Source: Rhodamnia argentea (Eukaryota; Streptophyta; Magnoliopsida; Myrtales; Myrtaceae). From it: a stretch of DNA of 64,000 nt. This document shows, in pieces, positions 4,783 through 62,260 of this stretch (position 1 is its first letter; each line of letters opens with the position of its first letter). Both the position numbers and the translations under genes were made by a program. The notes below the pieces were generated by a model. That model was given only the letters and a program-made list of their open reading frames with translations. It did no database searches and was not told the origin of the DNA. Location of the stretch: NCBI RefSeq assembly GCF_020921035.1, contig NC_063152.1, positions 1,928,001-1,992,000 of the forward strand, given 5' to 3'.

Positions 4783-5370
4783 GGGTTAATATCACGAAAA
4801 ATTTCAAATGGATACATATGTGACAAATTTATCTTAAATTATTTATATATTTACAAAAAAAACTCCAAACTAATATGGATATGCCAAATATGATCCTAAA
4901 TTATTTTTTTTACCACAAAAAATCTCAAACTGCAAATTCAAGTCCAATTTAATTTTTTGACCACAAAAAATCACAAACCGATACATTTATCACAAATTTA
5001 CCATCCATTATTTTTTCATTAAATATTATCATCAAATTCTTGATTTGAATGATACGTGACAATTGACAGGTATACCAATTTGGGATTTTTATCCTCAGTT
5101 TATCATAAGTATATTAATTTGAAATTTTTCGGAACATTCACCCAACTTATCAAAAACTAACGAAAGGTAAATTTATCATAAATGTATCAATTTAAATTTT
5201 TTTTATGACAAAAACGCTAATTTGATATAAATTTATCATGATCAAAAAATTTAATTTACGATAAATTTATCACATATATATCAATTTAAAATTTTATTGT
5301 GCAAGAAAAAAATAACTTAAAATAAATTTAACATATATGCACTAGTTCTGAATTTTCCGTGATGTAAACC
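4783..5370. mobile_element. MULE-like non-autonomous inverted-repeat element
   Basis: The left end (GGGTTAATATCACGAAAAAT) and the reverse complement of the right end (GGTTTACATCACGGAAAATT) match imperfectly. The similarity continues inwards for more than 60 bp, with repeated 'TATGTGACAAATTTATC'-like phrases. The interior is AT-rich and non-coding. It belongs to the same family as the element at 38545-39002, where a 9-bp duplication is visible. Confidence 0.6.
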
Positions 5371-6165
5371 GTTGATGTTATACACGGACGAAGAGAAAAA
5401 CAGAAAGGGATGGCCAATTTCTTCCAACGCCATCACATGGGATTCCGATCATGATTACAGATCCGAAAGGGACGTCTCGCCAACCTCACCCTCCACTTTC
5501 TTCCTTTCCTTTTGAGGCGTGGGTGGGGTTGATGTCAAACAAGAGCCGCCCTACATCCGTTCATCCCCAGATGCCACCACCCCTCCACCGCAAAACACCG
5601 TCCCAAGACGGTGGTCCCGTCCGGTGAGCTCCAAAACGGTCGTAAGAAGCACACGGGGTCCCCTTAAGAAAATGCCCCCGGCCTCGGGCTCGTCAAAGAT
5701 GCCCGGAAAAACAAAAAGGGTTTAAAGAAAGACAGAGGGAGAGAAGGTGAGGTGGAAAGCAGCAGCGCCAGCGGGAGGGAGCCACCTTGGTCCGGTCAAT
5801 CATGCCTGCCAGCCGCCGTGGTCCCGCCGGACCGGCAGGCCAATCAACAGCCCACAACCGTCCATCCAATCTCAAAAGAATGGGACTCTTCTCTTTACTT
5901 TATATATATAAAGTAGTATTGTAATATGCAAAAGAATCTCTCTAATCTAATCTACTCTCTCTTTAAGGGAGGGTTAAACCCAGAAAGAAAAAGGGAAGAA
6001 AGAATTAAGGAAAGTAAACATGAATCATGAGCCCCACCCGCCCCAACCCCTGTATAAAGATTCTCTACCCACCACCGCACAGACACTATAATACAAAAGG
6101 CACAAAGGGGGTAAAGAAAGACAGCAACCAAAATGATTGTTAATAATCACAACAGGGGGGAGCTG

Positions 6166-27924: not shown

Positions 27925-30557
27925 TAGCATTTCGTCTTTCTGTCTGAACCGTGGCCTTCAACCTTTTACATGGTGGGATGCAGACACAACTTGCTTGCAT
28001 ACTGTGCCGTTCGAGTTTCAAGCATGCTTTTCTATGTGAATTGCATAAGCAGACGTCAAGCATTGCAGTGATAATTTTTTAAGAGGCTTGCTTTTTTGTG
28101 ATATTAGTGTAATGTGTTTGGGGCCTCTTTCTGTTGGGCTTTGGGACTAGGTGGAATATCATACTTGCATTTTTAATAATTCTATAACAGGTAAGGCACG
28201 GTTTTCTTTGAATTGACTTAAGAGGGCATAACTGTGTGTAGAGGAAGTATTCTAAACTGGTGAACCAGCAGGTTGCTCTTACACTAGATGCTAGATATCC
28301 CAGTAGCTGAATGATCCTAGTGGACAATGATGGTTGCCTCATTGTTTTTCCACATTTGTCGATAAATTAGGACTTCCAATGGTCTCTTAGGAGTGTTGTG
28401 GAGAATGGGTGGAGAATTTGTGCTGGTTCTTGGTTATTTGGCATCTGAAACTTGGTCAGAATTCTAATATTGCTACATATTTTCTAATTGACGCATTCCA
28501 CTACAGTTGAAACTTTGCAACATATGGGGGAACCTCAGATAAATAGTGCCCAATTCAATGCAAGCTTACTGCCATCATTTAGCTGTTTTAACCCTCCCAA
28601 CAGTTTTGTGAAACCTTGTTCTGCATTGAAGGTTTTCAATAAACTTCAGCTTGAATGTTCTCATGGCTTAGTTGACTTTCGTAAAATGATCATGATGACT
28701 GATGATTTGCTTGAGATTTTCTTCAAGTTCTCAGCTGTTAGCTTAAGAATTCAAGAACTATCTGGGTAATTTGTCATAAAGCAGATCCGGTGTTCTGTGT
28801 ATTATGATGAGTCTCATTTGGTCATGTAACGACTAGTCTCCAAAGTCATATAACTGTAAATGCTGAAAACTACAGTTCCGTTGCTTTATGGTAGCTTCTC
28901 ATTAACTCCCATGGTATCCTCATTATCTCCCTGTGATGAGTCTCTTTTTCAGTCACATCGTTGACAGGTTTCAAAGTCTGATAAGTATGCATGCAGAGAA
29001 TGACGATTTGTTGTGAGGCTTTAATGTAATCACAGACTGGTAGAATGCATAAATTGCTGATGGAGTTTTGGATCCTGAGCTGCAGTCAGTCAGGATCATA
29101 ATCATGCAAGTATTATTCAGGGTCACAATTGTAGGCAGAACCATAGTTCCATATTGTTTTCGTTCCAAGCTAGATTGTTAAGGTCGGGATCCTACTTTGG
29201 ATCAATGAGTGCGTCCGAAGGATCAGGTCGTAGTATCGGTTTGAGGATCCTAAGGTCTTTGTACAATAATCTTGATGTCATTTGAAATGTACAGCCTGCG
29301 ACACCGTGTGAGTTTCGAACCGAATTGACTCACGGTACGGATGTTATGAACCTTTTCTTCACTTAAGGTTGGGACCCTACAAAGATCCCAACAAACCAAG
29401 TTTCCAAGATCCAATTGCGTCTCTCACTTTCTATCACAAGAATGTATGATGCTACGGGAGGACTATACCATAAAGACTAAATTGAGTAAGTTGATGTGGG
29501 GACAGAGCACCTAGTGACCCTGGGAAGGGCTATTGCATGAAGATGCCCTTTTGTGACTGACTTAATATGGAGTGTCACATGTAGAACCGGGATGAATCAC
29601 CTATGAGATTTTCCTTCCTTCGTGTCACTTCCAAAACGGAAAACTGAAATCGTGCTTAGCCATCTCTTACCTCTTGACCACCTAGGTGCCATGCTGGTTA
29701 AGTTCGCTAGCGTTTGATGACGCTCTTAAGATGCGAATACTTGGATGTTGAGATAGAAGTCGAATGATGTAAATAGTGGCTCGGTATCGTTTATCCCATT
29801 TTCTGAGCCGATAGATCTACTTCTACTAAATGTATGTCTTCCATCTGGGAAAGTCTCTCTCCTTGTGTGCCTGCGCGCTCGTTCTCATGCAATGAGCTAG
29901 TTGCTAGTTGGTGAGAATATTCGGATTTCATATAGCAATGGCGCCTCCAAATTTCTCAATCGACTAACTTTGAAATTTGACTTATTGGATAATGTCGAAC
30001 TCCAAATTTCCAGTTCAATTAGGCACTTCATTCATATTTTGACTGAGTAACACACAGGCTACTCAAATTTGATGTCAAGATCAAAGTGACCGAGTTATAA
30101 TGGATTAAGAACAAATCTCGCTTAGCAAACCAAAGAAACAAAGGTGTCGGTCATTTCTTCTTTTTCCCTTGTTCATGGGAAGTCCATAGTTTGCCCTAAG
30201 ATTTTTTTTGGGGCAAGGCCTTTGGGAGGAGCGGTGCGAATCTTTTTGTAAAGACAAAGGTGGTCGTATATGCTTGTGTCTATTCCAACACGACACCCTT
30301 CTCCTTTGACATCTTTGTATTTGTCACCATCCCCAATCCCATCGTCTTTCTGCCCTCGTTAGGTTTAATGCCTTCATGTCAAACAAAAAAGAGACGACAA
30401 ACACCCCTTTTGCTCTTTTCTTAGCTTTGTCTTCTTCATCTTCCCCAGCACCATACCAAACTTCTTCCCCCCCTCTCTCTCTCTTTCTCATTCGGTGAAG
30501 TCAATGGAACGGTTCTAGGGTTTCTTCTGCTGAAAGAGTGTGTAGGCTCATATTCAG
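27925..30557. other. Intergenic region upstream of the CLE gene
   Basis: About 2.6 kb without a supportable gene. Bases 27925 to about 28100 are the probable 3' untranslated region of the preceding gene. From about 30290 the sequence is pyrimidine-rich, with a CTCTCTCTCTCT run at about 30472-30485. This is likely the leader of the CLE gene. Confidence 0.45.
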
Positions 30558-30905
30558 ATGGCTAGCGAAGGCTCAGAGTCTCCCAGCGTTTCATGCTTAA
30601 CCCTTTTGCTCGTCCTGCTCGCTATGATTCCGAGCATTGCCACGCTGGCTGACCAGGAGCGAAGAAGCATCCCGCCGCCACGAGCTCCTCCGACCACGAT
30701 GGCAGAATCGAACGGCATGCAGCTCGAGAGGGGCGACTCAAGCACGTTACCAGCAAGTACCAGGAGCAGCTGTTTCAAGCATGGGTGTGGGCGCCAGGGA
30801 CAGGAAGTTCGAAGCCACCAGTTACCGGTTCGGCCATGGAAAGAGGATATGTTCGAAGCCGGGGCGCATGAAGTTCCCAGCGGTCCCAACCCTATTTCAA
30901 ATTAA
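30558..30905 (+). CDS. CLE41/CLE44-type precursor of TDIF peptide
   Basis: Single-exon prepropeptide of 115 residues. The last 12 codons (30867-30902) encode HEVPSGPNPISN, identical to the TDIF peptide shared by Arabidopsis CLE41 and CLE44. TDIF is made in phloem, is hydroxylated on two prolines, and is perceived by the receptor kinase PXY/TDR in the cambium, where it promotes stem-cell division and blocks xylem differentiation. The N-terminus has a secretory signal with hydrophobic core CLTLLLVLLAMIPSIATLA at about residues 13-31. The middle part is variable, as is usual for CLE proteins. The peptide sits at the extreme C-terminus directly before TAA, and the preceding FEAGA matches the usual acidic/small residue lead-in. 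The middle carries two Cys (SCFKHGCG, about residues 71-76) that I do not associate with this family. Confidence 0.93.
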   Translation: MASEGSESPSVSCLTLLLVLLAMIPSIATLADQERRSIPPPRAPPTTMAESNGMQLERGDSSTLPASTRSSCFKHGCGRQGQEVRSHQLPVRPWKEDMFEAGAHEVPSGPNPISN

Positions 30906-32453
30906 CCCCCGCCAACCCATTTGTAGGTACATAGAATCCTTTTTCGTTTCGCTGAACGGTCGGTGCACCGATACGTTTGTCCCTCTCCTTCACGATATTA
31001 TTTCATATGTACGCTTGTGTGTTTTGCTCTTTCGACTGGTTAAGGCTCCTTAGAACTGAGACACCTCCATTGTTCGCCATAGAGTTTCGTAAGTCGACGT
31101 TCGGCAAATGGAGATGGAATCATTCGGTCATCTATACACGCTCGAGAGTAGAGATGATCATCGGACAGGCGAGCGAGCGAGCGAACTTTGCCGCATCGCT
31201 CATGCATTTCAACTCGGGTCGGGAGAATAGAGCTTCATCCACGTAAAACTCATCTGTAATACCAACATCTAAGTGAACTGGATTAGCTCGGTGATTAATG
31301 AAGTAGATTAGGCGGGTGAATGATTCCGAAATGCATCTTGGGGGTTTGGATTTTCCTTTTGTTCTTTTGTTACGCTTTTTGGCACAGACGAGACTGAATG
31401 CAATGATGAAAGAAGAAAAAGCAAAAGGGCTCGAGACCAGACCAGAGAGACTCGTTGTTTTGCGTGCTAAAGTCAGATGGGTCCTCCTCGCATTGCATCC
31501 CACCAAGCTCGCAAATTGCTCTCCTCCGTTTTGTGCATTGGTGTAACTTAACAGGGCGAAACGAAATAAGTATCATTTAAGTGAAAGTTGGCACTTTTCA
31601 AACAATAATTGGTGAAATGAAGGCGATGGTAAAAAAAAAAAATGGTAAAATTGATAAATGACGAGAGTCGTTTTTTTGTCAAAGATAAGAGAAGTTGGTA
31701 ATTAAATTTGAAAAAAGGAAGATGATGAAAGATGGGTAACTAACTCGGGTAACTTAGCCGGATAAAAAATTGGTGACTATTCCGATTGGGGTTAGTAGTT
31801 CCTGCCTGCAAAGAGTAGGTAAATTTAATGGATAGCTAAGTAAGGCAAATAAAAAGTTGGTAACTCGATAGAAAAGTTGGTGAATTTGAAGGAAAAAATC
31901 AAGTAAACATCGGTACATAGCTCGAATGTGACTTGATAAATCAAAGCTAATTGGTAACCTAATAAAAGAGAACTAGTAAGTCATTGATAAATTGAAGACA
32001 TCCGTAAAGAAACGAATAAAAGTAGTCGAACAGCAATTCAATTAAAATAGTCAAACGAACGATCCGGTAAATAATTCAAATGAAAATTAACTAGTAATTT
32101 AATCAAACCAAAGTTGGTAAGTCGCTCAAATTAATATTGGTCCATTCATATACAACGGCAAGAAACATAAATACGATTTAGTAAAAAGTGCGAAAAGCTG
32201 ATAATTTGTAAACTTTAAAAAAAACTAGTAATTTAATATAAATTATCGGTAAGTTACCAATAAGATACCAAAAAATAAGGTGACTGGCAATTTTCTTCCA
32301 TAACAGTTTTTTTTTCGCATTTCAGAAATATACGAGCACGAAGTAGAATCATCCACCCGACAATGGCACATGACTTAGAGTTAAAGCAAGGACACTTGAT
32401 TGCAAATAATGCAAGGTAAGCTGGCAACCTCACATAAAAATCACTTGATAATT
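30906..32453. other. Intergenic region downstream of the CLE gene
   Basis: No supportable gene. Bases 31650-32300 are AT-rich, with repeated GTTGGTAA/ACTAGTAATTTAAT-like phrases at irregular spacing, suggesting an old degenerate tandem repeat or transposon interior. The left boundary of the long inverted-repeat element follows at about 32454. Confidence 0.4.
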
Positions 32454-33042
32454 GGAACAATTGCCAAAAGAGTCTTAAACTTGTTGCAATTGTGCCAATT
32501 CAGTCATAAACTTTTTTTTTTATCAATTCAGTCTTAAACCTTTTACAATTGTGTCAATTTAGTCCTTCTGGTCAATTTTGACCGATAATCGCCAACCTTC
32601 CGGCGACATTATATTTTAGTATATTATTTTCAAATTTTTTATTTTCTTTTTCTTTTTCTATCTTCCATCTTCTTCCTTTAGTTGATCACCGCCGATGACC
32701 AGCTAAAGGGAATAACTAGCTACCGATGTCAACCTCGCCGGCCCAAATCCGGCGAGGGCAACCTTGATGTTTGATGCACAATGAATTGACATGGACAAAG
32801 GAAGCCATGGGAGGTGCTCTAAGAAGAAGGACCTGGATCTTGATCTTCAAGTCTAGTGACTCGCCCCGCCGAAGGATCATGACCTTCTCCATCATGAGGC
32901 CGGAGGATCTCACCCGCTTGAGGTCGTCAAAGCTAGACCTCGAGGAAATCGACGAGTTTGAATAGGAGTTCCCATAGTTGCGGGTCCTCCAACAAGGGAA
33001 AGATGCGGGAGAGACTTGAATCCTTTGGATCAAGTAATTTTG

Positions 33043-34882
33043 TGTGATGACCTTATCATCAAAGCTCCAATGTCCCGGGGCATCGTTCGACACTAATTAC
33101 AAACTCTAATTTAATCTTATATTAGATAGTATTATTAGAGGGCGCATGCGGAAGCTTAACAAATTAGAAACAAGCAGCGAACATACATCAAATATAAATG
33201 TATGCATAAAAGGAAAATGGCAGGCATGCCTAAAGGGATGGCCTTAGTTGGGTTCACTAATCCGTATAACATATACATGGGCAAGACACACAAATTACAT
33301 AGGCAATGATGTCTGATGTTATAATAGATAACCTCTTAATTATATTATCTTCTTTATATATACAAATATGAAAATACATTGGGAGGATTACAATAGAAAA
33401 TGTCTACTCCGAAATACCATCCAAGATAGCCATTGTGGTGCTCCGATTCCATCGTCCATGTCCACTACTTCTCAAATGAAAAGCTTATATGAAAAAGGGT
33501 TAAATTATCGAGAATGAGCCGAAGCTTAGCAAGTAAAACGTCTAATTAGACAGTTAGGCCCTCCATGTATCATCCATTCAAGCACAGCTCACAAGCAAAG
33601 AATTAATGGGATACCAATCAGAAACGACCACGGAACATAATCACGAAGGGATTACAAGGCAATCGGGAGTCCATTAAACAAAACAAACATGCAAACATAA
33701 ACTCTATTTAACCTTTCCGCCAACCTCAAGGCCGAACTTCCCTCTTTGAAATCCCATGTTAAATCATGAAGTTCCTCTACCAATCGAGACGATCGACTCA
33801 TGTATTCCGCTTTTCCAAGACCTTGAAATATCAACTCAAGCAATGGATTGTACTTACAACCTCACCTTCTAAAGTTCACACCCAACCCAACACAACACCG
33901 CAAGACCCACTTTGGCTCTTCTCAAATCAACAACAACCCAAATGATCTACCCTCACACTCAACTCACCCATGACTCAAGAATACTAAATCAAGCGACGGA
34001 TTCGGCAATTAACCGCCAATTTCACTCTTAAGGCCGAATTTCCACCATTGGATTCCGAGTTTAATTCACTTCAAATTGACGATGAACAAGATAATCGGTG
34101 CTTAGATTCCAATTGCCCATAGTCCAAAGGTGCTAACTCAAACAACGGATTGTTCATACAAAGGCATTACCCTTTCCATGCAAGCAGAATTCCCTCACAA
34201 AATATCCATTTTCGAAACCACACAAATCGCCAAAACAAATGACCATTCGACAGGCTAGTGGTTAGGATAGAAGTAGTACTTGCCTGGGATTAGTTCTCGG
34301 AGAAAACAGAGCTCGAATTGCCAACAAAACGAGCGTGAACTGTCCATTCTTATTAGTGGGTCATGTAGCAAGAGGGATAGAGAAAGAGTGAAATCAACAA
34401 CAAGACGGGGGCTAAGCAAAGGCCGAGGGATGCCCGAGGATCACCAACATCGAGTTACAAGGTTGCCGGCTTGGTCGAAAGGAGGAGAACTAAGTGGATT
34501 CCAGAGAGAGAGAGAGAGAGAGCTTCGATTTTGGGGGGAGGGGGAGCTTCCACGAAAAAGAGAAAGGAAAGTGAGGGGAAGAAAGAGAGAGTGGGGGCTT
34601 AAAGAGCGTGGTGAAGAGAGTGAGGCGGTGGGGTTGGTCGATTGGGGACCTTCGCACTCTAATTTTAAACCAATTCCGCATTGGACTAGTATCGAATACT
34701 AATGCTTAACCAACTAATTCACAAATGGCCCTCATCAAATAACTGGGCCCAACTATGATGCCAAGCTTTAGAATTTAATTGCTCATCAAATAAAATCCCC
34801 CAACATCACTTTCGTTACTAAACCAGTCCGATAAGTACTAACTCACTTATTAATTCAATTAGCAAAAATTTAGGCCATCACA
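33043..34882 (-). repeat. 3' LTR of the LARD-like element
   Basis: 1840-bp LTR running from TGTGATGACC to GGCCATCACA on the + strand. It is a direct copy of 36402-38240 with numerous substitutions and small indels. It includes a GA microsatellite near 34504-34520. Confidence 0.9.
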
Positions 34883-36401
34883 ATTCTCCGCTTTTTTAAA
34901 AAAATTTATTCTTAAAATTTGGCACTTACTCCTTCTTTCAAATAAATGAGGGTACTTATTTCACCCTCAAAATTTCCATCGTCGCCTCCTCCTAAGAACT
35001 TCCATTCTCGAATTTCAATTCTTAGCTCCGCTCATCACATCTCGCAATCTTAACCATCACTCACGAATTCCACTACAAACATCTTTAGTTCGTTTTCATA
35101 ACATGCCATTCCACATGTTTGCATGTGGTTTTGTTGGTTATGGTATTTACACCACTCACACCCCACCACGACACTTTTGGGTTGTTGGCCGCCTAGTTCG
35201 TATGAGTCTCATCTCATTTTAAGGCTACCTTAATCACACAGCAGGGCCCTCTCGGACTCACATTCGAAGGCACACAAACAATTGACTTTCACCAATTCCC
35301 ACCAAGCATTCAAGACATTTTCATATCCATGGCACTATCCATTCGTCCTTTCATCCACTCGCCATGTAATGCCATGCATGTTCAAAAAGCTTTACATTTT
35401 GGAAAGATAATGCTACTTTCAAAACTAGTTAGACTCAAGACAATGCCTATACCCACTTTTCAATACGTTACTCGGTTCATTCCTATCCCCATCACCATCT
35501 TCGAACTTTGGTAGGAGCCGTACCTTACCTAGTCCTCTCTGGCCGGGCGTCACTCCTTGCCCTCATCGGACCATGTCATTATAAACCTACCAGCTTTCAC
35601 TTAGTTCGTCCCCAAGTCAGGTACCTACTAAGAAAATCTCATTCGACATGTCTTATACCATATCTCATTACGGTTTGTAGGCATTACATACGACTTGTCT
35701 CATACCAAGCCGACAGTTTATCAAGTTTGATTATATATGATGCATGCATATTAGTCAAATTTCATTTTATAATGCATGAATACGCTCACATCACTTATCA
35801 TTCATTGATCGTCACTTAAACCAACTCTAAAACCATTAGCAATCATTAACATCAAAGATCAAATGCCCATGTTCAATCTATAAACCCCTTGTTTGGTCGC
35901 TGTCAATTCAAAATCAAGATCATAAAATCAAACACGCCCTTGTCCAAAATCAATCACTGAACCTCAAAGTATAACCACAAGTTCAAGCCAAAATTTTATG
36001 AACACCGTTCGCTTCCTTACGAATATTATGTCATCATTCAGGGCCATCAATATAATCGATAACTAAAACCCTCAAGTTACGACACAAATTCAAGCATATA
36101 GTCCACAAATACCAATCCACCAAACTCCACATATCAACCTATCAATAAGTCATTTCCGTTTCAACTTATCATCTAATCCACCTGTCGATCACTATACTAT
36201 ACCCTCAAATAGCCATAAAGATTATCAAATCCTAAGCAATGATCGACTAACTTTTATCTAATAAGTAGCCTAAGCTACTATCTATCTCTCGACAAATATA
36301 AACACATGCACTTATAGTTTTAAACCCGTATATGCCTACCATACACTTCATCCACTAGCGCACCTTATCACTCCACTGGCCCGCTCCGATACCAAATAAA
36401 T
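34883..36401 (-). other. Non-coding interior of the LARD-like element
   Basis: 1519 bp between the LTRs, with no open frame showing retroelement protein motifs in any frame that I could read. It holds the polypurine tract at the left edge and the primer-binding site at the right edge (36383-36394). Confidence 0.75.
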
Positions 36402-37845
36402 TGTGACGACCTTATCATCGGAGTTCCGATGTCTTAGAGGGTCGTTCGACACTAATTACGAGCTCTTATTTAATCTTATATTATATAGTAATATTAGAAG
36501 GCGCATGCGAAGGCTTAGGAAACTAGAAACAAGCAGCAACTATATATCAAATACAAGTGCATACATAAAAAGAAAATGGCAAGCACGCCTAAAGGATATG
36601 GCCTTAGGAGGGTTCACTAATCCGTATAACATGCATGTAGACAACACACACAAATCATACGGGCGATGGTGTTTAATATTGTATTAAATAACCTGTTAAT
36701 TACATTATCTTTTTTATACAAACAAATACAAAAATACACTAGGAGGATTACGAAAAAAAATGTTTACTCCGGAATACCATCCATTATCGCTATTGCTGTG
36801 CTCCGATTCTATCATCCATGTCCACTACTTCTCAAATAAAAAGTTTATCCGAAAAAGTGTTAAATCAACGGAAATGAGCCGAAGCTCAACAAGTAAAACG
36901 TTTAACTAAATGCATCATCCATTCAAGCACAGCTCACAAGCAAAGAATTAACAAGATACTGACCAGAAACCACCACGAACATAAGCACGAAGGGATCACA
37001 AGGCAATTAGAAATCCATTAAACAAAACAAACACGCAAACATAAACCCCGTTTAACATTTCCGCCAATCTCAAGGCCGAACTTCCCCATTTGAAATCCCA
37101 CTTCAAATCGTCAAGTTCCTCTAACAATTGAGACAATTAACTCCCGTATTCCGCTTTCCCAAGACCTCGAGATATCAACTCAAGTAATGGATCGTACTTA
37201 CAACCTCACCTTCCAAAGTCCACGTTCAACCCAACACTTCAAGACCCACTTTGGTTCCTCTCAAATCAACGACAACCCAAACGATCCACCCTCATTTTCA
37301 GCTCATTCATGACTCAAGGATACTAAATCAAACAATAGATTCGGCAATTAACCCCCAATTCCATGCTTAAGGCCAAGTTCCCACACTTGGATTCCGAGTT
37401 CAATTCACTTTAAATCAACGACAAACACGATGATCAACGCTTAGATTCCAACTACCCATAGTCCAAAGGCGTTAACTTAATCAACGGATCGTTCGTACAA
37501 GGGCGTTACCCTTTCCATGCAAGCACAATTCCCTCACACAATATCCTTTTTCGATACCACACAAATCACCAAAAAAAAAAACGACTATTGGATGGGTTAG
37601 TGGTTAGGATAGAAGTAATACTTGCCTGGGATTGATTCTTAGAGAAAAAAGAGCTCGAATCACCCACGAAATGAGTGTGAACCGTCCGTTTTTCTTGGTG
37701 GGTCGCGCGGCAAGAGGGGTAGAGAAAGAACGAAATCAACACCAAGACAGGGCTAAGCAAAAGCCGAGGGACGCTCGAGGATCACCAACATCAAGTTACA
37801 AGGTCGCCGGCGTTGTTAGGAAGAGGAGGACTTGGCAAATTTTAC

Positions 37846-37891
<46 letters not shown>

Positions 37892-38240
37892 TTGGCGGGA
37901 GGTGCTTCCACGAAAAAGAGAGAGAAAGTGAGGGGAGGAGAGAGAGTGCGGGCTTAAATAGAGGGGCGAGGGGAGGGAGGCAGTGGGGTTGGTCGGTTGG
38001 GGACCTTCGCGCTCTAATTCCGAACCAATTCCGTGTCGGACCGGTATCGAAAACTAACGCTTAACCAAGTAATTCACAAATGGTCCTCATAAAAAAAAAA
38101 CCATGCCCAACTACGGCGTCAAGCTTTAGAATTTAATCGCTTATCAAATGAAATTCCCCAACATCACTTTCGTTACTAAACCAATCCAATAAGTACTAAT
38201 CCGCTCATTAATTCAATTGATGGAAATTTAGGCCATCACA
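36402..38240 (-). repeat. 5' LTR of the LARD-like element
   Basis: 1839-bp LTR running from TGTGACGACC to GGCCATCACA on the + strand. It carries a long (GA)n run at about 37847-37888 where the partner LTR has a shorter one, so the repeat has expanded or contracted since insertion. Confidence 0.9.
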
Positions 38241-38544
38241 TTTTGAGGCCACAACACGTCGGTCGCCATGGTTTCAACTCCAGTTTTGGAAAGGGGAAGG
38301 GAAAAAAAAGAGAAAAAGTGAAAAGAAAAACAAGGAATACGACAATAAAAAATTTAAACAATATCAAAATATTATGTTGCCGGACGTTCGGCCCCAATCG
38401 GCCAAAATTGATCGGATAAAATGAATTGGCACAACCGCAAAAGATTTAGAATTGAATTAGGAAAAAAAGGTTTGGGAATGATTTGACACGATTACAATAA
38501 GTTTAGGATTTTTTTTGTTAATTTTCCTATTATAATTCCCAAAA

Positions 38545-39002
38545 TGGTTAATACCACGGAAAATTCTAAACTAGTACACCCGTGACAAATTTACCCAAAA
38601 CTATTTGTTAATCACAAAACATCACAAATTGATGCACTTATGACAAATTTACCTCAAACTGGTATAATCGTGATAAATTAACTCTTCATTAGTTTTCGTT
38701 AAATTTAACCGTCAAATTGCTGAGTTGGATGACACATGACAGTTATAAGTGTACCGGTTTAGGATTTTCACCCTCCACTTATTACTAGTGTATCAATTTG
38801 GAATTTTTCGTTGTATTAACCCAATTTAACGAAGGGTAAATTTGTCACATGTGTACCAATTTAGGATTTTTGTGATAAAAAAAATTATTTTATGGTAAAC
38901 TTGTCACATGTGTAGTGGTTTAGGATTTTTTATGGTAAAAAAAATAATTTGTGATAAATTTATCATATGTGTACTGTTTGAAATTTTTTGTAGTATTAAT
39001 CC
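38545..39002. mobile_element. MULE-like non-autonomous element with 9-bp target copies
   Basis: Termini TGGTTAATACCACGG and the inverse AGTATTAATCC. The flanks are TTCCCAAAA (38536-38544) and TTCCTAAAA (39003-39011), 8 of 9 matching. The interior is AT-rich with repeated 'GTGACAAATTTACC' and 'GTGTACCAATTTAGGATTTTT' phrases and no coding frame. Same family as 4783-5370. It sits only about 17 bp beyond the right arm of the Pack-MULE-like element. Confidence 0.7.
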
Positions 39003-40103
39003 TTCCTAAAAATGGGCCTTGCATGTCTGGTTGTGCCACTAGGGTTGAGCCTTTGCTTTTATCTTGGAATGACCTTGAAAAATGATGGGAGCCCAGTCAT
39101 ACTCCAGCAGCCCAAGTCATCGATTAGGGTCAATCAATTGAGAGGCCCCTTTGCCTCTCACTGCCTTGCATTTCCTTTTCCTCCCTAAGCAAGTATTTCA
39201 AGGATACTATGATATGATGTTCCATGAACTCAGTAAATATAAATTGAACTTTGTCGGTTGGATCTGGTGGGATTCATGACGGACGCGACTACTTTCAATG
39301 GTCCAGATTCGAGTTAGTACACATGTTATACCCATATAATGAATTCTCAGTATATTGCGGTTTATAAATTATTGTAAGGTTGCATGAAATCTACAGAAAT
39401 AGAGAGACTTGTTCATCAAAGATGGATAATGTGTTATGTGAACCCTAATTTTCTTGATAGTTTGAGTTAGCTAAATTTTATCTTTTGCACGCCAAAACAG
39501 GGTATCCGGCGTGGACAAGCTATCAATCGCCACGAGTTACTAACTGCACTTAGTACTTGACGGAGCAAGGCATCTTGTCTTATTTGTACGTCCAAGGACC
39601 AAAGATAGCATGGCATTTTCAGAAACCAAACCCCTCTCACTTCTCGACTAACTCAATGTTGGTGAGATTTATGAACTTGCACATGCTCTTTCGGCGAACC
39701 AAATGGTGGCCAGGATGATAGCTAGCTCGTAGTAGCTGCGTATATGGTGACTAATGACGATGCTGAGGCTAATTCGATGATCAATCGATGAAAGTAAAAA
39801 TATATTTCGTTCATGGAGACCATAATTCACGTTGATTAATTACTCAAATGGTAAGGTAGTAGGTTTCCCGACACGACTCATCTAAGTCACGGATAAGTTC
39901 GTACTGACAAAACTCTAGAGAATGTGATACTGTCTAGAGCCAACTTGAATACGCCTTGAGAGATGGAGATAGAGATCATCACCAGCTGAATTGGGAGCTG
40001 CGACTGTACTAGATCAATGAGCTAAACAACATGTCAATATAACAAGTTCTGGAAAGAATGTATGTAATCCAAACAAAATGTACAAGAGTTTAAGAAGTGA
40101 CCC
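39003..40103. other. Intergenic region downstream of the MYB gene
   Basis: No supportable gene. The part next to 40104 is the probable 3' untranslated region of the MYB gene on the minus strand. The rest is AT-rich single-copy-looking DNA. Confidence 0.4.
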
Positions 40104-41289
40104 CTAGCAATTCCATGCAAGTTGGTCTATGGGGCTCAAATTATAATACATTCCACCTGCAGCCACTCCCACCGACGATCGGTCCATGAAATCAAAATCA
40201 AAGCTAGAATCGATGGCCGCGGTGCTCATGAAATCGCAGTTGTCGCTTTCCACCCCTAATTTCCCATTTTTCTCATTGTCCGGGGTGAGTCCAGGAGGCT
40301 GTTGCTGCACCTGCACTTGCGAGGCGTCTTCATGCCTAGGCCCTGCCAATACAGCATTTGCCTCAAGGCCACAATCCCAGAGGCAACTCTCCTCCTCATT
40401 CCCCAATAACCCGGTTGACAACGAGTTCAACAGAGAAGAGAAAGACGACGACGACCTGCCCGCAGCTGCTGAATCCACCATCACATATGGAGAAGCAGCA
40501 CTAGGGTTTTGTTGGTGGTATTCAAATGACACTAAGTTTGAGCTTGTTGAAGAAGTTGCATGCAACATTGGGGGAAAAAGACCAGTACCATTAGGAGTAG
40601 TGGCCTGATCAGGACAAGGAACAGAAGGCAATGTGACAAAGGGTATTTTCACATCCATGGAACAATTGCTTGTACTAGTGCCCGTGCTCATGTGGAAAAT
40701 GGACGATGAATTGGCCTTCTGAAATGGAGTGGCACTATTGTTGGAGGAATTGACATTGCCGCCATTGCTGTTTTTGAGAGACGAGGTGGAGGAGAGGAGG
40801 TTGTGGGTGTTGGGGTCAAGGCCCTGAGCGAGGAGCTTCTTCTTGATGCAAGAGTTCCAAAAGTTCTTGACCTCATTGTCGGTCCGACCGGGCAAGTGCT
40901 TGGCTATCTGAGACCACCTGTTGCCGAGAATCCGGTGCACGTCGATGATGGTCCTCTCTTCTTGGGCGGAGAACGAACCCCTTTTCAGGTCAGGCCTCAG
41001 GTAGTTTATCCACCTCAATCTGCAGCTCTTCCCACATCTCTGCAACCCTGCTTTGCCATATATTAGACTATTAATTGCAGCAGAAGAGCAAAGAAGAAGG
41101 CTAAACACTAAAGAGAAAAGGGAAAGATGCAGAGGTCCAGATGGTATCGATCATCATGCCTGCTAGCTTAGGGACAGAGCTCCAACTGCCGTGACCGTGA
41201 GTGGTGATGAACCGCACGAGCTTCTCGTCTTCTTCAGGAGACCACAGCCCTCTCTTCACCTTCTGTTTGGTGCAGCAGTGGTGACCCAT
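40104..41289 (-). CDS. R2R3-MYB transcription factor
   Basis: Nuclear DNA-binding regulator of 357 residues. Exon 1 is 41289-41160 ([20 protein letters not shown] to PKLAG) and exon 2 is 41047-40104. R2 spans about residues 14-65 with its three Trp (LWSPEED, SWSSVP, LRWINYL). R3 spans about 67-116 with a Phe in place of the first Trp (GSFSAQEE), as is usual, then [20 protein letters not shown] and FWNSC. The [12 protein letters not shown] segment and a Ser/Asn-rich, acidic C-terminus follow, ending DQLAWNC. The MGHH start and the R3 sequence place it near the MYB26/MYB61/MYB86 group, several of which act in secondary wall formation; I cannot choose between them. The usual second MYB intron in R3 is absent. 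The 112-bp intron has a GC donor (GCAG|GCATGA) and normal AG acceptor. Confidence 0.9.
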
Positions 41290-41493
41290 CTATCGATCCT
41301 TCTCTCTTCTCCTCCTCCTCCGCCGCTGCCTTCCCCCTTCTACATAACGACACTCAGGTTCAGGTGATCAACCTGGAGTGTGAACTGGTGGGTGGGGTTT
41401 CTTATATTTTCCTCCAGTTTTATCAGGGAAAGTGGACCTTGGCACAAAACCTTATAAAAATGTTTGCTCAAAACAAGGCTTTTCTTTTCGTGT

Positions 41494-41546
<53 letters not shown>

Positions 41547-43554
41547 TGCTGGAAATATTAAACTTAGGGTATACTCATGACTCAGGAGAGGACCACTGTC
41601 TGATCTCTCTCAGTTGAGTGTTTTTCACTTTGTTTCTTTGAGAGTAGAGTTCCTGTACTGTTCCCACAATGTTCAATCACCCTCCGTTGTTAAATGTTGG
41701 ACGTGTTCTAACTGCATTAACTTGATTTTAGACTTTCTACCCTTGACTTTCCAGTGGCCGGTTGTCTTTTTTTTCTCCTTTTGTCTGAATGTCTTTGCCA
41801 CTGTTCTTTCATGCCTATGCTTAGCTTAGCTAGGAGCTTAATTCTTTTCTTTTACACCCGCCCATCTAATCTCCCTTCTACTAAAGCCCCATAACAAAGC
41901 TAGCTGTATAATGCCCAGCTTCAATAAGCATCCTCGCTTCATTCATTTTTAGGATTATCAAAACCCATTTTTGATCTACATCATAACTTGCCAAAAAAAG
42001 GAATCTATCTATTACATATCGCTTTACCCACCTATCTCTTATCACCCTTCAAATATACCGCTGAATGCACATCACGTTTCCATATGCACTCTGTAATTAC
42101 AATTAAAACCCCCTCTCCCTCGAATCCGATCATCTCCGGGCATAACTCGGCCCCGCCGCCCAAGCACCGCCTCAACCTCCGACACTGATGTCGATGCCTC
42201 CCCCACGACTCGTTGAAAAGACGAGAGTACATGACTATAGAGCATGGTAACAGGTCCCCTTGCTCCAAATCCTCATCTATCTTGTAGAATAACATGTCAT
42301 AATGATGGGTTAAGATTATAATTTGGGGGAAGACCTAATCTTGATATGAAGAAAGGTCCCATCATTTTGCTGCCTGCCTCCAAATTTGACAGACAGAAAA
42401 GGAGCATCTATCCCAAGCCCCTCTCTGTCTCTGTCTCTGTCTCTGCACCTTACACAAGTATTTGCATTAAACAATAAGAATTAATGAGGAATTAGCAAAC
42501 AGATCCATACTTAGTTTACTCAACCGTTGCTTCATGTGTCATTTTCTTGGTGTGGAAGAAGATTGAGATGATTGGGTTAATCCGCTTTCCAATGATCTTG
42601 CCCCCCCTTTCTCTTTTCCTTTCCTTCCTTCTTTGCTGTGGGAGAGGTACTTATCATATAGAATTCCACTCCGGAGGAAATCACGTAGAAAAGCAACCAC
42701 CCTATTAATAAATCTCGATTTTGACTTCCCTTGTCAGATATCATTACTCTCATTTTTTTGACCCTTCTCCTCCCTCCCTGACGTGTTCTATTTGGTTCAC
42801 ACGTGTCAAATGTTGCTGACTTGTCTCTCTGCTGTCTTTTTTTATATCCCTCGTTGCATTATAAGGACAGGCTGAATTGAAATATGCATGGCCGAACATG
42901 CTTTCACCCAAACAAGGAAATCATGCATTGAAGCGTGATATGTCTCTTCAGGGGGCAATATTAATAGGTGAAAATAAATATTCGGGTCATTAAAATTGAT
43001 TTGCCAAATGACGTGATAGATTCTTAGTGGAGGATGAATACGTGGATCATCGCCAAACAATTGTCGCCTTTGGACAGACTTAAAGGGAACAGAGAATATA
43101 ACGATTTTGATTCTAAATTATGGATTTAAATTCAATTTTAAACCTTTTAATTGAATCAATGTTATCCTAAACCTTGAAGTGAAAGTGCAACCTAATCCTC
43201 CTCGCCAAGTGTCACATGAAATTGCTAATGTGGTAGTCTAATCATCGCCCACCATCCTACATGCCATGACCGGTGATCTAACGTGAACAACTTTACTCAA
43301 AACAATGCCATATTGCTTATTTTGGCTGCTAATGAGCCGAGGGGTTGATTGAGACACATTTCACTACTTCAGGGTGTCAATGAAGTATTTACCAAAATAC
43401 TAGGCGAGCGAGTGAAGTATCTCATAAAAGTGTATCTAGAGATGAGCTTTGCAAGAATGAGCTAACATGTTGATTTAGAATATATCCAAACATAATATCT
43501 TCAATTCTTGTTGCTAATTCAAGGGTGAGTCCAATTATAGAATTTAACAACTTA
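41290..43554. other. Upstream region of the MYB gene
   Basis: 2.3 kb with no second gene. A long (GA)n run at 41499-41544 lies about 210 bp before the MYB start (CT on the coding strand). A short CTCTGT hexamer repeat lies at about 42421-42446. A degenerate piece at about 43100-43240 ('TAAACCTTTTAATTGAATCAAT') resembles the terminal repeats of the neighbouring MULE-like family. Confidence 0.45.
41499..41544. repeat. (GA)n microsatellite in the MYB upstream leader
   Basis: About 23 GA units, read as CT repeats on the MYB coding strand, in the interval where the 5' leader or core promoter should lie. Confidence 0.9.
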
Positions 43555-44011
43555 TGGGAAAAGTACCAAAAAAGTTATAAATCTATTGCATTTGTGTCAA
43601 TTCAATATAAACCTTTCAATTATGCCATTTGAATTTTAAACCCTTTGACAATTTACCAATGTAGTTCGTCTAGCCAATTTTGATTGAAAATCACTAACAT
43701 GAATACCATTCTTCCTACATGGTATGCCGGCTCTAACGTAGACATTTTTTTATTTTTATTTTTTGAATTTTTATTACTTTTGAATTTTTTTTTTCTTTTC
43801 TTTCCATTCTTTTTTTTTCCCAACTGTGGGTCGGCGAGGTGGCCGTCCAACCATATCCAACCATAGGCAAGGTAGCAGTTTTTGGCCAAAATTGGCCGGA
43901 TAAATTATGTTAGCAAATCATCAAAATGTTTAGAAATCAATTGGTACAATTAAAATGTTCAGAATTTAATTGGCACAAGTATAGGTTTAGCACATTTATG
44001 GTACTTTTCTG
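43555..44011. mobile_element. MULE-like element, 457 bp, 9-bp target copies
   Basis: Starts TGGGAAAAGTACCA and ends TGGTACTTTTCTG, an imperfect inverted repeat that continues inwards for about 100 bp (for example TCTATTGCATTTGTGTCAAT against the right arm). The flanks are AACAACTTA (43546-43554) and AACAACATA (44012-44020), 8 of 9 matching. It belongs to the same terminal-repeat family as the Pack-MULE-like element at 32454-38527 and the one at 46750. A small GC-rich core (GTGGGTCGGCGAGGTGGCCG) lies at about 43826-43845. Confidence 0.75.
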
Positions 44012-46749: not shown

Positions 46750-47990
46750 GGGAAAAGTATAAGAAAAGTGCTAAATCTATTGCTTTTGCGTTAATTTAAT
46801 GCTCAATCTTTTAATGATATTAATTTAATCCTAAACCTTTTGACATATAGCCAATTTAGTCCTTCCGGCTAATTTTGACTAGATATTGCTAACGATGGGG
46901 TGAGCATGAGCCGGGTGGGTAGGTTATGGACCTAAACCCTAAATCGACCCCATTATAAGCGGTTCTAAATTTTTGGAACTTGGAACCTACATGTTTGTTC
47001 TAGAGCCTGTTTTGAATCTATCCCTTTTATCCGTCCTGTTCCAAGGTCTATCCAAGAATCTATTTTCCTTTTATTTATTTCATTTTTTCTAGCAAAATTA
47101 TATGAGTAGCAATGAAACGATTCAAAATAAAATATGAATAATAAAACTCACTATTCACTAAAAGCAATAATCCCTATTATGAGCAATAAAAATTACAATC
47201 CACCAAAACAAAGGATGTGAGGCAAGCGAGATTAGGTTTTTTTTCAACAATTGTTAAAAATCGGTTCCAAAATCAGTCCGGCTCATAAGTACTTGAAATT
47301 GAGAATCGGCCCTGTTCCAACCGACTCCCAAAATTTAGAACCGGTTCCCGAACCTATTTTTCGGGTGGTCCGATCCAAGTTCCGGGTGAACTCGGTCCAG
47401 TTGCACACCCCTAAGCGACGTATACAATAGATGACCTACGTGGCACAATCGACACCGACGTGGAGCATTTTGATAAATATTTTAATCCTTTTGGATTATT
47501 TATTTATTTATTTATTTATTTTTTCAAGTTCCTCTGGTGCCCGGCGAGGCGTTGCCCAAAGTGACGGTGGCCCTCGTCGGCATGTGGCGAACGTTGGCCG
47601 GACCGGCTCTCACCCAAGCCAGGGCGGTCTCGCCCGGCGTCGATTGGGCCCGGCAAGGCAAACCCTCACCCAATCCAGGGTGGCCTCGTCCAGCATTGCA
47701 CTAGCCCGGGCGACACCCTACGAGGTCACTTTGACTTTGGCAACACCGGCAAGGCCAACCTTCGCCGACCACCGGAGGAACCCGAAAAGAAAGAAATAAT
47801 AAAAAGTAATAATAAAATAAAAATTATTAAAATATTATTGAAAAATGTCAATATATGTGTCGACCAGTGCCACGTAGACCTTCTAGCGTCCAAGTCAGCA
47901 ATATCTAGCCAAAATTGATCGAAAGAACTAAATTGGCTTTAGGCAAAGGTTTAGAATTAAATTGACGCCAATACAATAGGTTTAGTACTC
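46750..47990. mobile_element. MULE-like element with GC-rich core and nested hAT-like insert
   Basis: The left arm from 46750 (GGGAAAAGTATAAGAAAAGTG, then TTTTGACTAGATATTGCTAAC) pairs with the right arm ending near 47990 (reverse complement AGTACTAAACCTATTGTATT, then TTTTGGCTAGATATTGCTGAC) over about 180 bp. A GC-rich core with CCGGCGAGGC and CTCGCCCGGC lies at about 47535-47780. A second element appears to have inserted just inside the left arm (see 46899-47412). No clear target duplication was found for the outer element. Confidence 0.65.
46899..47412. mobile_element. hAT-like insert nested in MULE-like element
   Basis: Starts GGGGTGAGCATGAGCCGGG and ends TTGCACACCCCTA. It shares interior phrases such as GGGTGGTCCGA and CGGTTCC with the 59718-60534 element and lies exactly between the left arm and the core of the outer element. 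I could not find a clean 8-bp target duplication. Confidence 0.5.
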
Positions 47991-50799
47991 TCTAGCCTAT
48001 TATTATAAACCCTTTTAGTTCTAACCACATAATCTAAGTTCAAAAAATGAACCAAAGCTTGGCCTAAAGATGATATTGTTTGAATTACAACCTGTTTGCT
48101 ACCTATTATAGTGTTTGCTTGCAATAATAGCTATTGCACGCATCCCCCATCGTAGTACCCAACTATCTATCATAGTCTTCTTGTTATTGCTTTTTTTAAA
48201 AATGCCGATGTCATTGCCCGGTTGTAATAGCTATTCCCGAAATAACTAAAGTTTTATTATAATTATTTTGACTCAATCACCTATTCTAGGATTAATGAAT
48301 AAACCATCAAATAATAGGTAAATAATTGACGTAATAATAACTATGTTACCTTCATAAATACATAGTTATTTATTTCACTAGACGTTACTCACAATGTAAT
48401 AATTAGCATAGTATTATTTGCTCTCTATTAAGTACAATTATCAATAATTTAATAACTTGATATTATATTATTCATAATAAGATGATTGTCGTGATTAGTG
48501 ATTATATTAATTTATGTCGAAGTGTGATTCAATTATTTTTTCAATCATACTGATAATTATGTGGTAAATAGTTTTTTTAAACATAACCATAAATTATGCG
48601 ATTAACATGTAACCATAAAATTATTTAAAAGAATAATAGATAGAATACCAAGGATATTGCACTCATGATTGGCTATGAAATTGATGATTACTATAAATAT
48701 AAAATTTGATGTGATCACATGTTATGTGCGAAATGTTATCTCCACTTGGACCAAGACATAGCTTTTACTTGTTCGAATAAAAATTAAGGTAAAGTCTTAT
48801 TTACATACTTCATATAACAAATTGTAAAAAACCAATTTGCAAACGGCATTAAACTCATGGATCATGGTTAACTATTAGAATAATAATCATCATAGTCCCT
48901 TTTAATAATATTTGGGCTTTGCTTGCATGACAGTTTTTGGGTCACTATTAGATAAACAAGCGGTTGCAAGCCACAAATTCTTAAAGGAATGGATCTCATA
49001 ATAATTTATAATTATTTCTTATTTATTTTTTTGGAGCCCAAAACAAACCCCGTTATTTTCACCATAGATTAAAGACAGTTGCTTAATCCTTTCTCTTAAT
49101 AATTCATAAAATTCTGATGCTGGCTTCCCTGGTTTCTTCCTCTTGCGTGATCGTCGCCAAAGTCGTGCCACGACTGCCTATCGACGGAGACCCGAAGGGG
49201 ACGAGAGAACAGAGAAAACCTCTAGAAGCAGAGAGCCCTCCAAGTTTCGTAACGCAGCCGCAGCCGCCACTCTAAGATTAGTAGGAAGACGACTTATCAA
49301 CTGGGTTGAAACTTGAGGACCATCCATCCATCAATGGCGTACGATCAAAGGCGACGGGCCAGTGGAGACGACGCTCGGTCAAAGTATTATATAACAAAGG
49401 GAAAACCCTAGTCTGTATTCTTTGCATACTGAATGAAAAAGAAAACCGAAAATCCAGATAATCATGACTTCATGAGTCATGAGCCCGTCTCTCTGTATAT
49501 ATAAATCTTGAAGTGTGGATCTGCTTAATAACTTGTGCACTCCATCGTCGAATCTTTTCTATCAAATGGGTTCGAAGCGCAAGAAACAACCATCCATTCG
49601 TTTGGCATCCCCCCGTCGTCACCGAGAAGCTAACCGTCGCCGCAGAGGCGAGGTCGGGTTTCTGCACTTGCGGCAAGATTGGTTTCTGGGGAGAAAAATA
49701 TTGCGGACGCGTGATAGAGACGAGCTACTCTTATCTTTGGCTTCGGGTTCACTCCTTCCGGGGATCATCATCCCATTCGATCCGGAAGCTTGTCGAAGCA
49801 GCCAGGAAAATGGATGATATCCGAAACGTTGTTGAATTTTCAATAAGAGGGCGAATGCAAGAAAGTCTCTTTGCATGCCTTCTACTTCAAAGAAGTCCCA
49901 GCTGGCCTGAACAGAGACAAATATATATTCTTTGATCACTTTGGCAGCGATGGCTTCTCAGTCACGCGATCAAAACCCTTGGAAAACTTGACCGCTAATG
50001 GACCATGTCCACATCCAGCTTTTGATGTCGAAATCTACACATTGAGGCTGCCCGTCTTTTTTTTTTTTTTCCCGTCCGGTTACAATGATACAAGGACGTA
50101 AACATTAAACTCGATAAACGCAATGGATATTCGCAAGCCGTCTCGGCCGTGTGCATCGAATAAGGCTTCACTCATAAGGGGCCCCCGCATGGCCTTCTTG
50201 AATGTTATTTTTGAATGGGAAGATGGGTTTACCATGGAACTTTGGTTTTGTGAATGGTTTGACCACTCAATCGATTCCTTAGGACTAACTCAATTTTTGT
50301 TTTAGAGAGATTCGATTTTCACCATAAGTTACAAGTAGGGATAATCATATAAATGATTCATGAACTTTGATTTAATGTACAATGTGGTCCCTGAACTTTA
50401 GCTCAATACACAATATGGTATCTCAACTTTTAATTTGAGCAATATAGTATTAAAGTTCAGGGATTATTAGTGTCATTTTCCCTTGACAAGTATTAATCAA
50501 TCATGAGCTTGTCGATCTAGACTTGGCCCAACAGAAAAGCCCAATCCAAGAGCTGATCCATTGGGTTGAGCATGATTTGGTGATTGATGGGTGGGTGATA
50601 GATGGCCAAGGGATGGGCCTTGTAAATCTTGGGCTGAAGGAGGCGTATGATCCTGTGTGTTGGATCCAGTTACTAGTTTTGGTCGAATGAAGTGAAGGAA
50701 GATTGATTATTGTCCACAGAAACCAGAAAGAATTATCGAAGCCTATCCATACACTTCCAGTTCGAGCTCCGGTTCCGGTCCTTCTTGCTCGGCGGGTTA
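47991..50799. other. Intergenic region upstream of FKBP13
   Basis: Bases 48000-49050 are very AT-rich with no coding potential. Bases 49100-49940 are less AT-rich and have overlapping open frames in both directions, none with family features. Bases 50350-50500 hold degenerate 'TTCATGAACTTTGATTTAAT'-like transposon debris. The last 100 bases are the probable FKBP13 leader. Confidence 0.4.
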
Positions 50800-56960: not shown

Positions 56961-58468
56961 GTATATCGCATGTCGTGTGTAGGGGACCTACAAATCTCTA
57001 GGGCTCATGGTGAATGTAATTTCTGACGAGAAGACTGCTGTCAAGATTTGACTGAGCATTGTTTGGGCCACTGTGATAAAGAACATCGAACGTCCCCCAC
57101 TTTTCACTAGGACTAGGAGGGAGGCCCATCAGCATATAGAATTTGCCTCTAGTGGGGCTGTCTCCTGTGACTTCAGCAGACAGTGTTTCGTGGGCCTAAA
57201 ATCCATGACGGGTACGAACTTGAAGTTTCGATTGGGGCATCCATTTGACCAATCCGGCCTCATCAATGGGATATCATTTTGGATTTTGAATCCCTCGCCG
57301 ATGGCTTGTGGCAGCAAGCAAAGGCAAATATCAGCCCGCCATGGGAAGACCATTTACATTAGCAAGGAGCTTTTTATGTCTTCATGCTGTTTCAAAATCA
57401 TATGAATCCGATCCAACGCGGCCTATGTAAAGATTCGGTGCACAATCACAATGAAAGAAATCGTGAAAGCGAGAAAAAGAAATCGAGAAACAAAGTTTTA
57501 TCCTGATTCGCTATAATTGGCCTTCTCTGTAGCTATTTATGAACCCAAACCTAAACTACCAATGGAAAAAATATGAGCTCAAACTATAAAAGTCATTAAT
57601 GTTCAAGAGTGATGCCCCATGAACCCACGTGCTTTCCTGTTGATGGGGAGTATGAACTATGCCCTAACAAGCTACGGATCATGCTTAGATTTAACCCATC
57701 TACACGTAATTCGAACCATCAAGAAGATTATGTCAAGATAATGAGTCCTTTGTTCCACATCGAAAGCTACGGATCATGCTTAGATTTAACTCATCTACAC
57801 GTAATTCGAACTATCAAGAAGACTATGTCAAGACAATGAGTCCTTTGTTCCACATCGAACCGTGTCGTCCGTCTTACGCTCTTACTCTTCTCACAAATCT
57901 TCTAACTATCAAGAAGACTATGTCAAGACAATGAGTTCTTTGTTCCACATCGAACCGCGTCGTCCTTCTTACGCTCTTACTCTTCTCACAAATCTCCACG
58001 CACGAACGATCGCTAACTTTGATCGAGAAAGGTCATCCAAAAAGTCTTGATTGACCAAGTAAAACTTGGCAAAGACTGGTTGACGTCAACTTGTCATGAA
58101 GCACCGTGTGGTTCAGAACCCTTCCCACACGCCCTGAGTCTTTGCCGCCCCCAACACGCACGACGAAGACCGACTCCTTTGGAGTCTCGCCTTTGTACAG
58201 CATTTCCAAGTCAACTCAATAAATGACTTAAACCCTACCTTGAAAGAGAGGGTTGACTTGACTTCTAGCTGCCCTGCAATGGCCTGCCCAAATCAGATTC
58301 CAAGTGGGTGCGATCTGTTTGCTCTGAAAGTGCACTCTCAACCTGAAAATATCCCCTCCATATCATGCTGCTATTTTGGTTCACCCTTTCTCAATCTCAC
58401 GTGTAATTTGGGTTAGAAAGTGTAAATTGATTAGGTTTGAAGAGGTGGACGGAGCGGGAAAAGTATAA
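56961..58468. repeat. Duplicated segment T, copy 1
   Basis: About 1.5 kb that recurs in direct orientation at 59402-59536 plus 60790-62055. The match runs from 'AGGGGACC' and 'CTCTAGGGCTC' through GACTGAGCATTGTTTGGGCC, ACTTCAGCAGACAGTGTTTC and TCCAAGTCAACTCAATAAAT to GAGCGGGAAAAGTATAAA. This copy contains an extra internal tandem unit (about 57668-57762 repeated from 57763). It carries no gene that I recognise; parts resemble an LTR remnant also seen near 44.6-45.8 kb. Confidence 0.85.
57668..57960. repeat. Short tandem array inside segment T
   Basis: Units of about 95 bp starting GCTACGGATCATGCTTAGAT and ending TCCTTTGTTCCACATCGAA. Two near-complete units are followed by partial ones that keep only the AACTATCAAGAAGACTATG to CACATCGAACCG part. 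The number of units differs from the second copy of segment T. Confidence 0.7.
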
Positions 58469-58546
58469 AAAAAAAAAATCAATTAATAAAAGGCTTGATG
58501 AGGTGCATGATTTAGCATAGAATTCATATATCACATGCAAGAAAAT

Positions 58547-60789: not shown

Positions 60790-62055
60790 CTTTTCACCAT
60801 GACTAGGAGGCGGCCCATCAGCATATAGGATTTCACTCTATTGGGGCTGTCTTCTGTGACTTCAGCAGACAGTGTTTCGTGGGCCTAAAATCCATGAAGG
60901 GTACGAACTTGAAGCTTTGATTGGGGCAGCCATTTGACCAATCCAGCCTCGTCAATGGATATCATTTTGGGTGTTGAATCCTACACCGATGGCTTGTGAT
61001 AGCAAGCAATGGCAAATATAAGCCCGCCATGGGAAGACCATTTACATTAGCAAGGAGCTTTATGTCTTCATGCTGTTTCAAAATCATATGAATCCAATCC
61101 AAACGCGGCCTATGCAAGGACTCGACGCACAATCACAACAAAAGAAATCGTGAAAGCGAGAAACAAAGTTTTATCCTGATTTGCCTTAAACTAAGGCTAC
61201 CTCCAATGGAGGATTACATTATAATTAGACTTCTTTGTAGCTATTTATGAACCCAAACCCAAGCTACCAATGAAAAAAATATGGGCTCAAACTATAAAAG
61301 TCATTGATGTTCAAGGGCGCTGCCCGATGAACCCATGTGCTTTCCCGTCGATGGGGAGTATGAACTATGCCCTAACAAGCTACCAATCATGCTTAGATTT
61401 AACCCATCTACACGTAATTTGAATTATCAAGAAGACTATGTCAAGACAATGAGTCCTTTGTTCCACATCGAACCGTGTCATCCGTCTTACGCTCTATGTC
61501 AAGACAATGAGTCCTTTGTTCCACATCGAACCGCGTCGTCCGTCTTACGCTCTTACTCTTCTCACAAATCTCCACGCACGAACGATCGCTAACTTTGATC
61601 GAGAAAGGTCGTCCAAAAAGTCTTGATTGACCGAGTAAAACTTGGCAAAGACTGGTCGACGTCAACTTGTCATGAAGCACCGTGTGGTTCAGAACCCTTC
61701 CCACACGCCCTGAGTCTTTGCCGCCGCCAACACGCACGGCGAAGACCGACTCCTTTGGAGTCTCGCCTTTGTACAGCATTTCCAAGTCAACTCAATAAAT
61801 GACTTAAACCCTACCTTGAAAGAGAGGGTTGACTTGACTTCTAGCTGCCCTGCAATGGCCTTCCCAAATCAGATTCCAAGTGGGTGCGATCTGTTTGCAC
61901 TGAAAGTGCACTCTCAACCTGAAAATATCCCCTCCATATCATGCTGCTATTTTGGTTCACCCTTTCTCAATCTCACGTGTAATTTGGGTTAGGAAGTGTA
62001 AATTGATTAGGTTTGAAGAGGTGGGCGGAGCGGGAAAAGTATAAAAAAAAAAAAT
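60790..62055. repeat. Segment T, copy 2, right part
   Basis: Continues the match to copy 1 (about 57095-58468), including GACTAGGAGG, the CACTCTCAACCTGAAAATATC block and the end at GAGCGGGAAAAGTATAAA. It lacks the first 95-bp tandem unit of copy 1 and is otherwise colinear. Confidence 0.85.
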
Positions 62056-62260
62056 GAAGTCATAAATCTATTTCATTGGTGTCAATTCGGTCCTAAACCT
62101 TTCAACCGAACCGATTTAGTCTACCCAACAAATTTAGGCAGGAAATCGCTGACGAAAATGCCGGTTGTCTCTCGTGGCACGGCCGGCATTGACGTGTATA
62201 ATTTTTAAAATATTTTTTTTTCTTTTCAATGAAATAAGTTTAGGATTTTTTTTTTTTTTT
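62032..62260. mobile_element. Partial MULE-like element
   Basis: From GGGAAAAGTATAAAAAAAAA at 62032 the sequence follows the left arm of the 43555/46750 family (AAATCTATTTCATTGGTGTC, then TCGGTCCTAAACCTTTCAAC, then a CCGGCATTGACGTG core). A short inverse piece, AATAAGTTTAGGATTTTT, lies at about 62233. In copy 1 of the duplication only the first 25 bases are present. Confidence 0.5.

Follow-up and report, generated by a model that had tools for sequence, protein, structure and literature searches.

A host-gene fragment in a probable Mutator-like element of Rhodamnia argentea, split by a LARD-like LTR retrotransposon

A window of 64,000 nucleotides (G000:C3:1928001-1992000) was analysed as a whole against the genome it comes from, which was searched over 346.7 Mb in 74 contigs. 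At 32454-38527 of the window a minus-strand gene fragment lies between the arms of an element resembling Mutator-like elements (MULEs), and an LTR element that occupies 33043-38240 divides it in two (Table 1). Including the LTR insertion the whole element spans roughly 6.07 kb, with GG termini at 32454 and 38527. Inverted pairing of 32448-32729 with 38256-38533 resulted in 196 identical positions out of 272 aligned and a score of 96, while 300 dinucleotide shuffles gave a mean of 17.8 (sd 2.6) and a maximum of 27.5. Arms of about 200 bp enclosing the fragment had been described in the first-pass annotation, which also called for their alignment; the pairing confirms them at approximately 230 bp, and the GG termini coincide with the ends then assigned to the element. 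The terminal inverted repeats of MULEs are long, at about 100 bp or more, and the length of the arms found here is in keeping with this. Their identity of 72% is below the 75% TIR identity that is applied to MULEs as a criterion in PMC3903597. The candidate target duplication of the element matches at 7 out of 9 positions, with the right copy one base off the terminus.

Table 1. Positions of the features that make up the locus, in coordinates of the window.
Feature	Position	Strand	Basis or remark
Candidate MULE target duplication, decayed	32445..32453 TTGATAATT; partner 38529-38537 ATTATAATT	.	7/9
Left terminal inverted repeat of MULE-like element	32454..32680	+	Likeness to right side reaches ~32729
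Filler between captured gene part and left arm	32682..32829	-	Single genome match
Captured fragment, second part: NYLIQ...ILRRGESLDLKIKIQ	32830..33042	-	38-codon in-frame deletion vs parent
TSD TTTTG of LTR element, left copy	33038..33042	.	5/5 vs right copy
3' LTR in element orientation	33043..34882	-	LTR alignment
Internal region of LTR element	34883..36401	-	1519 bp
5' LTR in element orientation	36402..38240	-	LTR alignment
TSD TTTTG of LTR element, right copy	38241..38245	.	5/5 vs left copy
Captured fragment, first part: ~20 bp parental 5' leader, ATG (A at 38269), MATDVLWPQ	38246..38289	-	
Right terminal inverted repeat of MULE-like element	38307..38527	-	Arm alignment

The LTR element is on the minus strand, measures 5198 bp and has TG...CA ends. 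Between its LTRs of 1840 and 1839 bp the identity is 84.9% (1798 ungapped sites; K2P 0.174), or 81.3% by BLAST over 1868 columns with gaps counted. TTTTG stands once on each side, as expected from the perfect 5-bp copies that had been reported for an LTR element inside the fragment. A purine-rich tract adjoins the 3' LTR at the 34883 end of the internal region, and TGGTATCGGAGC was placed near 36401, at the inner end of the 5' LTR, by means of a search pattern taken from the window itself; we take this sequence to resemble a primer-binding site for initiator tRNA-Met. A search for a tRNA gene at window positions 30000-42000 found none. Stop-to-stop frames on the sense strand of the internal region did not exceed 52 aa. 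LARDs are a non-autonomous type of LTR retrotransposon with long LTRs and a length of more than 4 kb, without coding capacity. All structural features of such an element are present (LTRs, TG...CA ends, target duplication, primer-binding-like site and purine tract), and with a total of 5198 bp and a maximum frame of 52 aa the size and, going by frame lengths, the lack of coding capacity agree as well. The earlier designation as LARD-like therefore holds with regard to size and the absence of a long frame, but the internal part is short. At least 55 genome matches to the internal part and at least 51 to the LTR were obtained, own copies included, with 40 of 181 and 40 of 159 candidates scored, respectively. 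The LTR element is old and non-coding.

Removal of the LTR element together with one TTTTG joins the two parts of the fragment in a frame of 116 codons, in which MATDVLWPQ is followed by NYLIQ and ILRRGESLD is included. The end of this frame crosses the filler and reaches a stop at 32716. In its present state the frame has 13 codons (MATDVLWPQNVMA) and stops inside the LTR, a point absent from the first-pass annotation. The second half of the fragment, oriented like the 3' LTR, lies downstream of it; a 125-codon frame spans the junction between the two, but its start is GTG. A scan of the fragment itself against Pfam families returned no match, comparison with the PDB returned two weak ones (E 0.093 and 0.58), and no occurrence of the string LRRGESLD was found in the literature searched. 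For the filler no second match was found in the genome search, and its likeness to the parent described below was no better than chance, being equalled by 19% of 300 shuffles.

A six-frame search of the genome with the joined protein resulted in seven matches, all seven candidates having been scored. One was the window, two were pieces of G000:C6:2610026-2610658, one was a second copy of the fragment and three were weak matches on C1. The first of these loci on contig 6 is the parent. Its frame of 210 codons is unbroken from ATG to stop, and residues 168-187 match the PNRC motif PF15365 (E 5.3e-8, 33 bits, cut-off 21). The fragment in the window corresponds to the first 116 codons of the parent minus a 38-codon in-frame deletion, at 85.4% identity over 219 aligned sites; its homology begins roughly 20 bp upstream of the ATG and the PNRC end is absent from it. 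No bracketing pair was found when the window arms were aligned to 8 kb around the parent. An arm-like stretch roughly 2.2 kb beyond the gene scored 37.5, compared with at most 29.4 in 20 shuffles. What the element carries is part of a host gene, and the parent copy is located elsewhere and not in a MULE. A longer homologue free of flanking inverted repeats had been proposed as the test of the capture reading, and a longer one with no bracketing pair of these arms in the 8 kb around it was found; introns, which it was also expected to have, are absent from its coding sequence, which is one unbroken frame. Among the three weak matches on C1 (L005, L006 and L007), only L006 resembles a distant relative of the parent, as judged by eye. 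From approximately 1501 (G000:C1:23789131) it has a stop codon within the match (...GLMMGKVVILQRGEPLD...) and is possibly a pseudogene.

The second copy lies at C6:1956376, on the contig that also holds the parent and about 0.65 Mb away from it. It contains the corresponding 5' part, in which two TAG codons stand in frame, has no LTR element and is flanked on both sides by arm-like sequence, the arms having been judged without shuffle control; by eye, approximately 35 bp of its left end are missing. The window copy, this copy and the parent align without gaps across the LTR insertion point. The minus-strand fragment starting MATDVLWPQ and the restoration of its frame on excision of the LTR element and one TTTTG, both claimed at the outset, accordingly stand, the junction being gap-free against parent and sister copy alike. 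The 5' capture boundary agrees between the two copies to within a few bases, at approximately 20 bp upstream of the parental start codon, and neither copy reaches the PNRC part of the parent.

The arms are members of a repeated family. For the left arm at least 43 genome matches were obtained, its own included, with 40 scored out of 3839 first-look candidates, and the matches listed are spread over eleven numbered contigs. Twenty loci were cut out, one of which was the window. From the other 19 (L016-L034), six one-armed loci, four with a truncated end and L032, identical with L020, were left out, and 10 two-ended elements from 8 loci made up the set in which target duplications were evaluated, the MULE criterion applied being a target site duplication of 8-11 bp directly at the termini. 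Duplications of 9-10 bp (score of 3 or more; 7/9 or better) were observed in 8 of the 10, with none in L017 and L024, and not one of 90 mismatched flank pairs scored as well as those of the members. An earlier choice of ends, often on internal subrepeats of the arms, had given 4 of 15 pairs at that score as against 7 of 210 mismatched. With ends that are long and inverted and duplications of 9-10 bp, the family fits Mutator-like elements. The Pack-MULE-like reading that had been put forward for the locus is in this way supported by the parent elsewhere, by the repeated family of arms and by the duplications of its members. Scoring of 150 out of 474 candidates gave at least 150 genome matches to the MULE transposase domain PF10551, and no match to the arms was found at 30 transposase loci over about 3 kb each; a MULE transposase presumably served as the mover.

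Other repeats were observed in the window. A short element of approximately 455 bp at 43556-44011 has inverted ends from the same arm family, a stretch of about 1.26 kb with arm-family ends at 46750-48006 is possibly a degraded element, and a lone arm-family end is found near 62041. Adjoining the MULE, a separate inverted-repeat element with internal direct repeats of approximately 59 bp occupies 38534-39010, and sequence related to it is present at 4783-5373. A dispersed duplication links 57100-58490 with 60790-62066; it consists of two blocks that overlap, at 84-92% identity.

These results very probably reflect acquisition of a host gene's 5' end by a non-autonomous MULE, the making of at least two copies and the subsequent insertion of the LARD-like element at this locus. 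The acquiring element would have been a member of the repeated family, and the acquired piece would have comprised about 20 bp of leader and up to 116 codons of the gene for the PNRC-motif protein. One of the copies would then have come to lie here and one on contig 6, and the non-coding retrotransposon would have entered the captured coding sequence of the window copy, duplicating TTTTG. The second copy at C6:1956376 fits a captured sequence that moves and multiplies with its element. A native gene at this position, broken by the LTR retrotransposon and surrounded by inverted repeats through coincidence, would agree with a joined frame that starts with ATG and stays open for 116 codons. It is at odds with the unbroken 210-codon parent elsewhere, with the missing PNRC end, with another copy that shares the 5' cut and is flanked by arm-like sequence at either end, and with arms that belong to a repeated family; once the parent and the second copy had been found this explanation was rejected, and its probability is very low.

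That one MULE family captured this 5' end twice, independently, would go well with 3' capture ends that differ between the copies, with the mere 7 of 165 sites at which both copies agree against the parent, and with the arms at C6:1956376 not being among the closest arm matches listed (40 scored of 3839 candidates). The common 5' boundary and orientation speak against this, as do the non-parental fillers of the two copies, whose alignment is equalled in score by 5 of 1000 shuffles, and we regard separate captures as a minor possibility. Since boundary and orientation are the same and the fillers similar, derivation of both copies from one shared capture event is the simplest reading of the data. 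The capture preceded the LTR insertion, as follows from the nesting and from the presence of a captured copy without the LTR element in the same genome. An order of capture, LTR insertion and only then MULE insertion, in which the MULE moved here with the LTR element inside it, conflicts with nothing in the local sequence, and the total of about 6.07 kb is within the MULE size range, most candidate coding-MULEs of PMC3903597 being 2 to 10 kb. It is nevertheless improbable, and the MULE duplication looks more decayed (7/9) than that of the LTR element (5/5), a comparison of very few bases. The MULE was likely already at the C3 site when the LTR element arrived, but this is the simplest reading only, as joint transfer of the MULE and an LTR element already inside it would give the same result. 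Of the sequence of events initially read from the locus, capture before LTR insertion is retained, while insertion of the MULE at this site before the LTR element is not strictly given by the data. Changes confined to the window copy (17 of 165 sites) are in loose agreement with the LTR K2P of 0.174, or about 0.087 per LTR, and with so little sequence the divergences of fragment and LTRs are not separable in time.

The captured piece is a dead gene fragment. Selection on it was considered and rejected: over 165 sites, the changes found in the window copy alone comprise 8 synonymous ones and 9 that alter the amino acid, the proportions expected under neutrality being approximately 31% and 67% if an excess of transitions is assumed, and these counts provide no evidence for constraint because the sites are so few. 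The pairwise dN/dS was 0.31, a figure that includes the parent's own constraint. Transcription of the fragment copies, starting in a TIR or in the LTR that precedes the second half and shares its orientation, with an effect of the RNA, for example as small RNA, on the PNRC-motif parent is highly improbable.

The locus offers a clean worked example of gene capture in which one genome contains the donor along with an interrupted copy and one that lacks the LTR element, and the repeated MULE-like family constitutes a candidate set for screening further captures. The general picture of gene capture is left unchanged. No paper treating Pack-MULEs together with Myrtaceae was found in the literature searched, and four papers mention both Pack-MULEs and Eucalyptus, each of them once. 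For tomato, rice, maize and Arabidopsis, PMC3310237 describes Pack-MULEs that have parents and occur in several copies, and the window element resembles those in its long inverted ends, in a piece of a host gene with the parent elsewhere and in the existence of more than one copy. It differs from them in that only two copies were found here, that its own target duplication is decayed and that the mobilising transposase is presumed. The retrotransposon is similar to LARDs in its 1.84 kb LTRs, its total of more than 4 kb, the lack of a long sense-strand frame and its dispersed relatives, and dissimilar in an internal region of only 1519 bp. LTR insertions nested in MULEs occur commonly, and PMC3903597 gives nested insertions for more than one third of 530 maize and 476 rice candidate coding-MULEs. 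Unlike those MULEs, which have transposase sequence aboard, the window MULE carries a gene fragment; an LTR retrotransposon nested inside a MULE is common to both. The locus is probably a Pack-MULE in which an LTR retrotransposon is nested, and events of this kind are well known.
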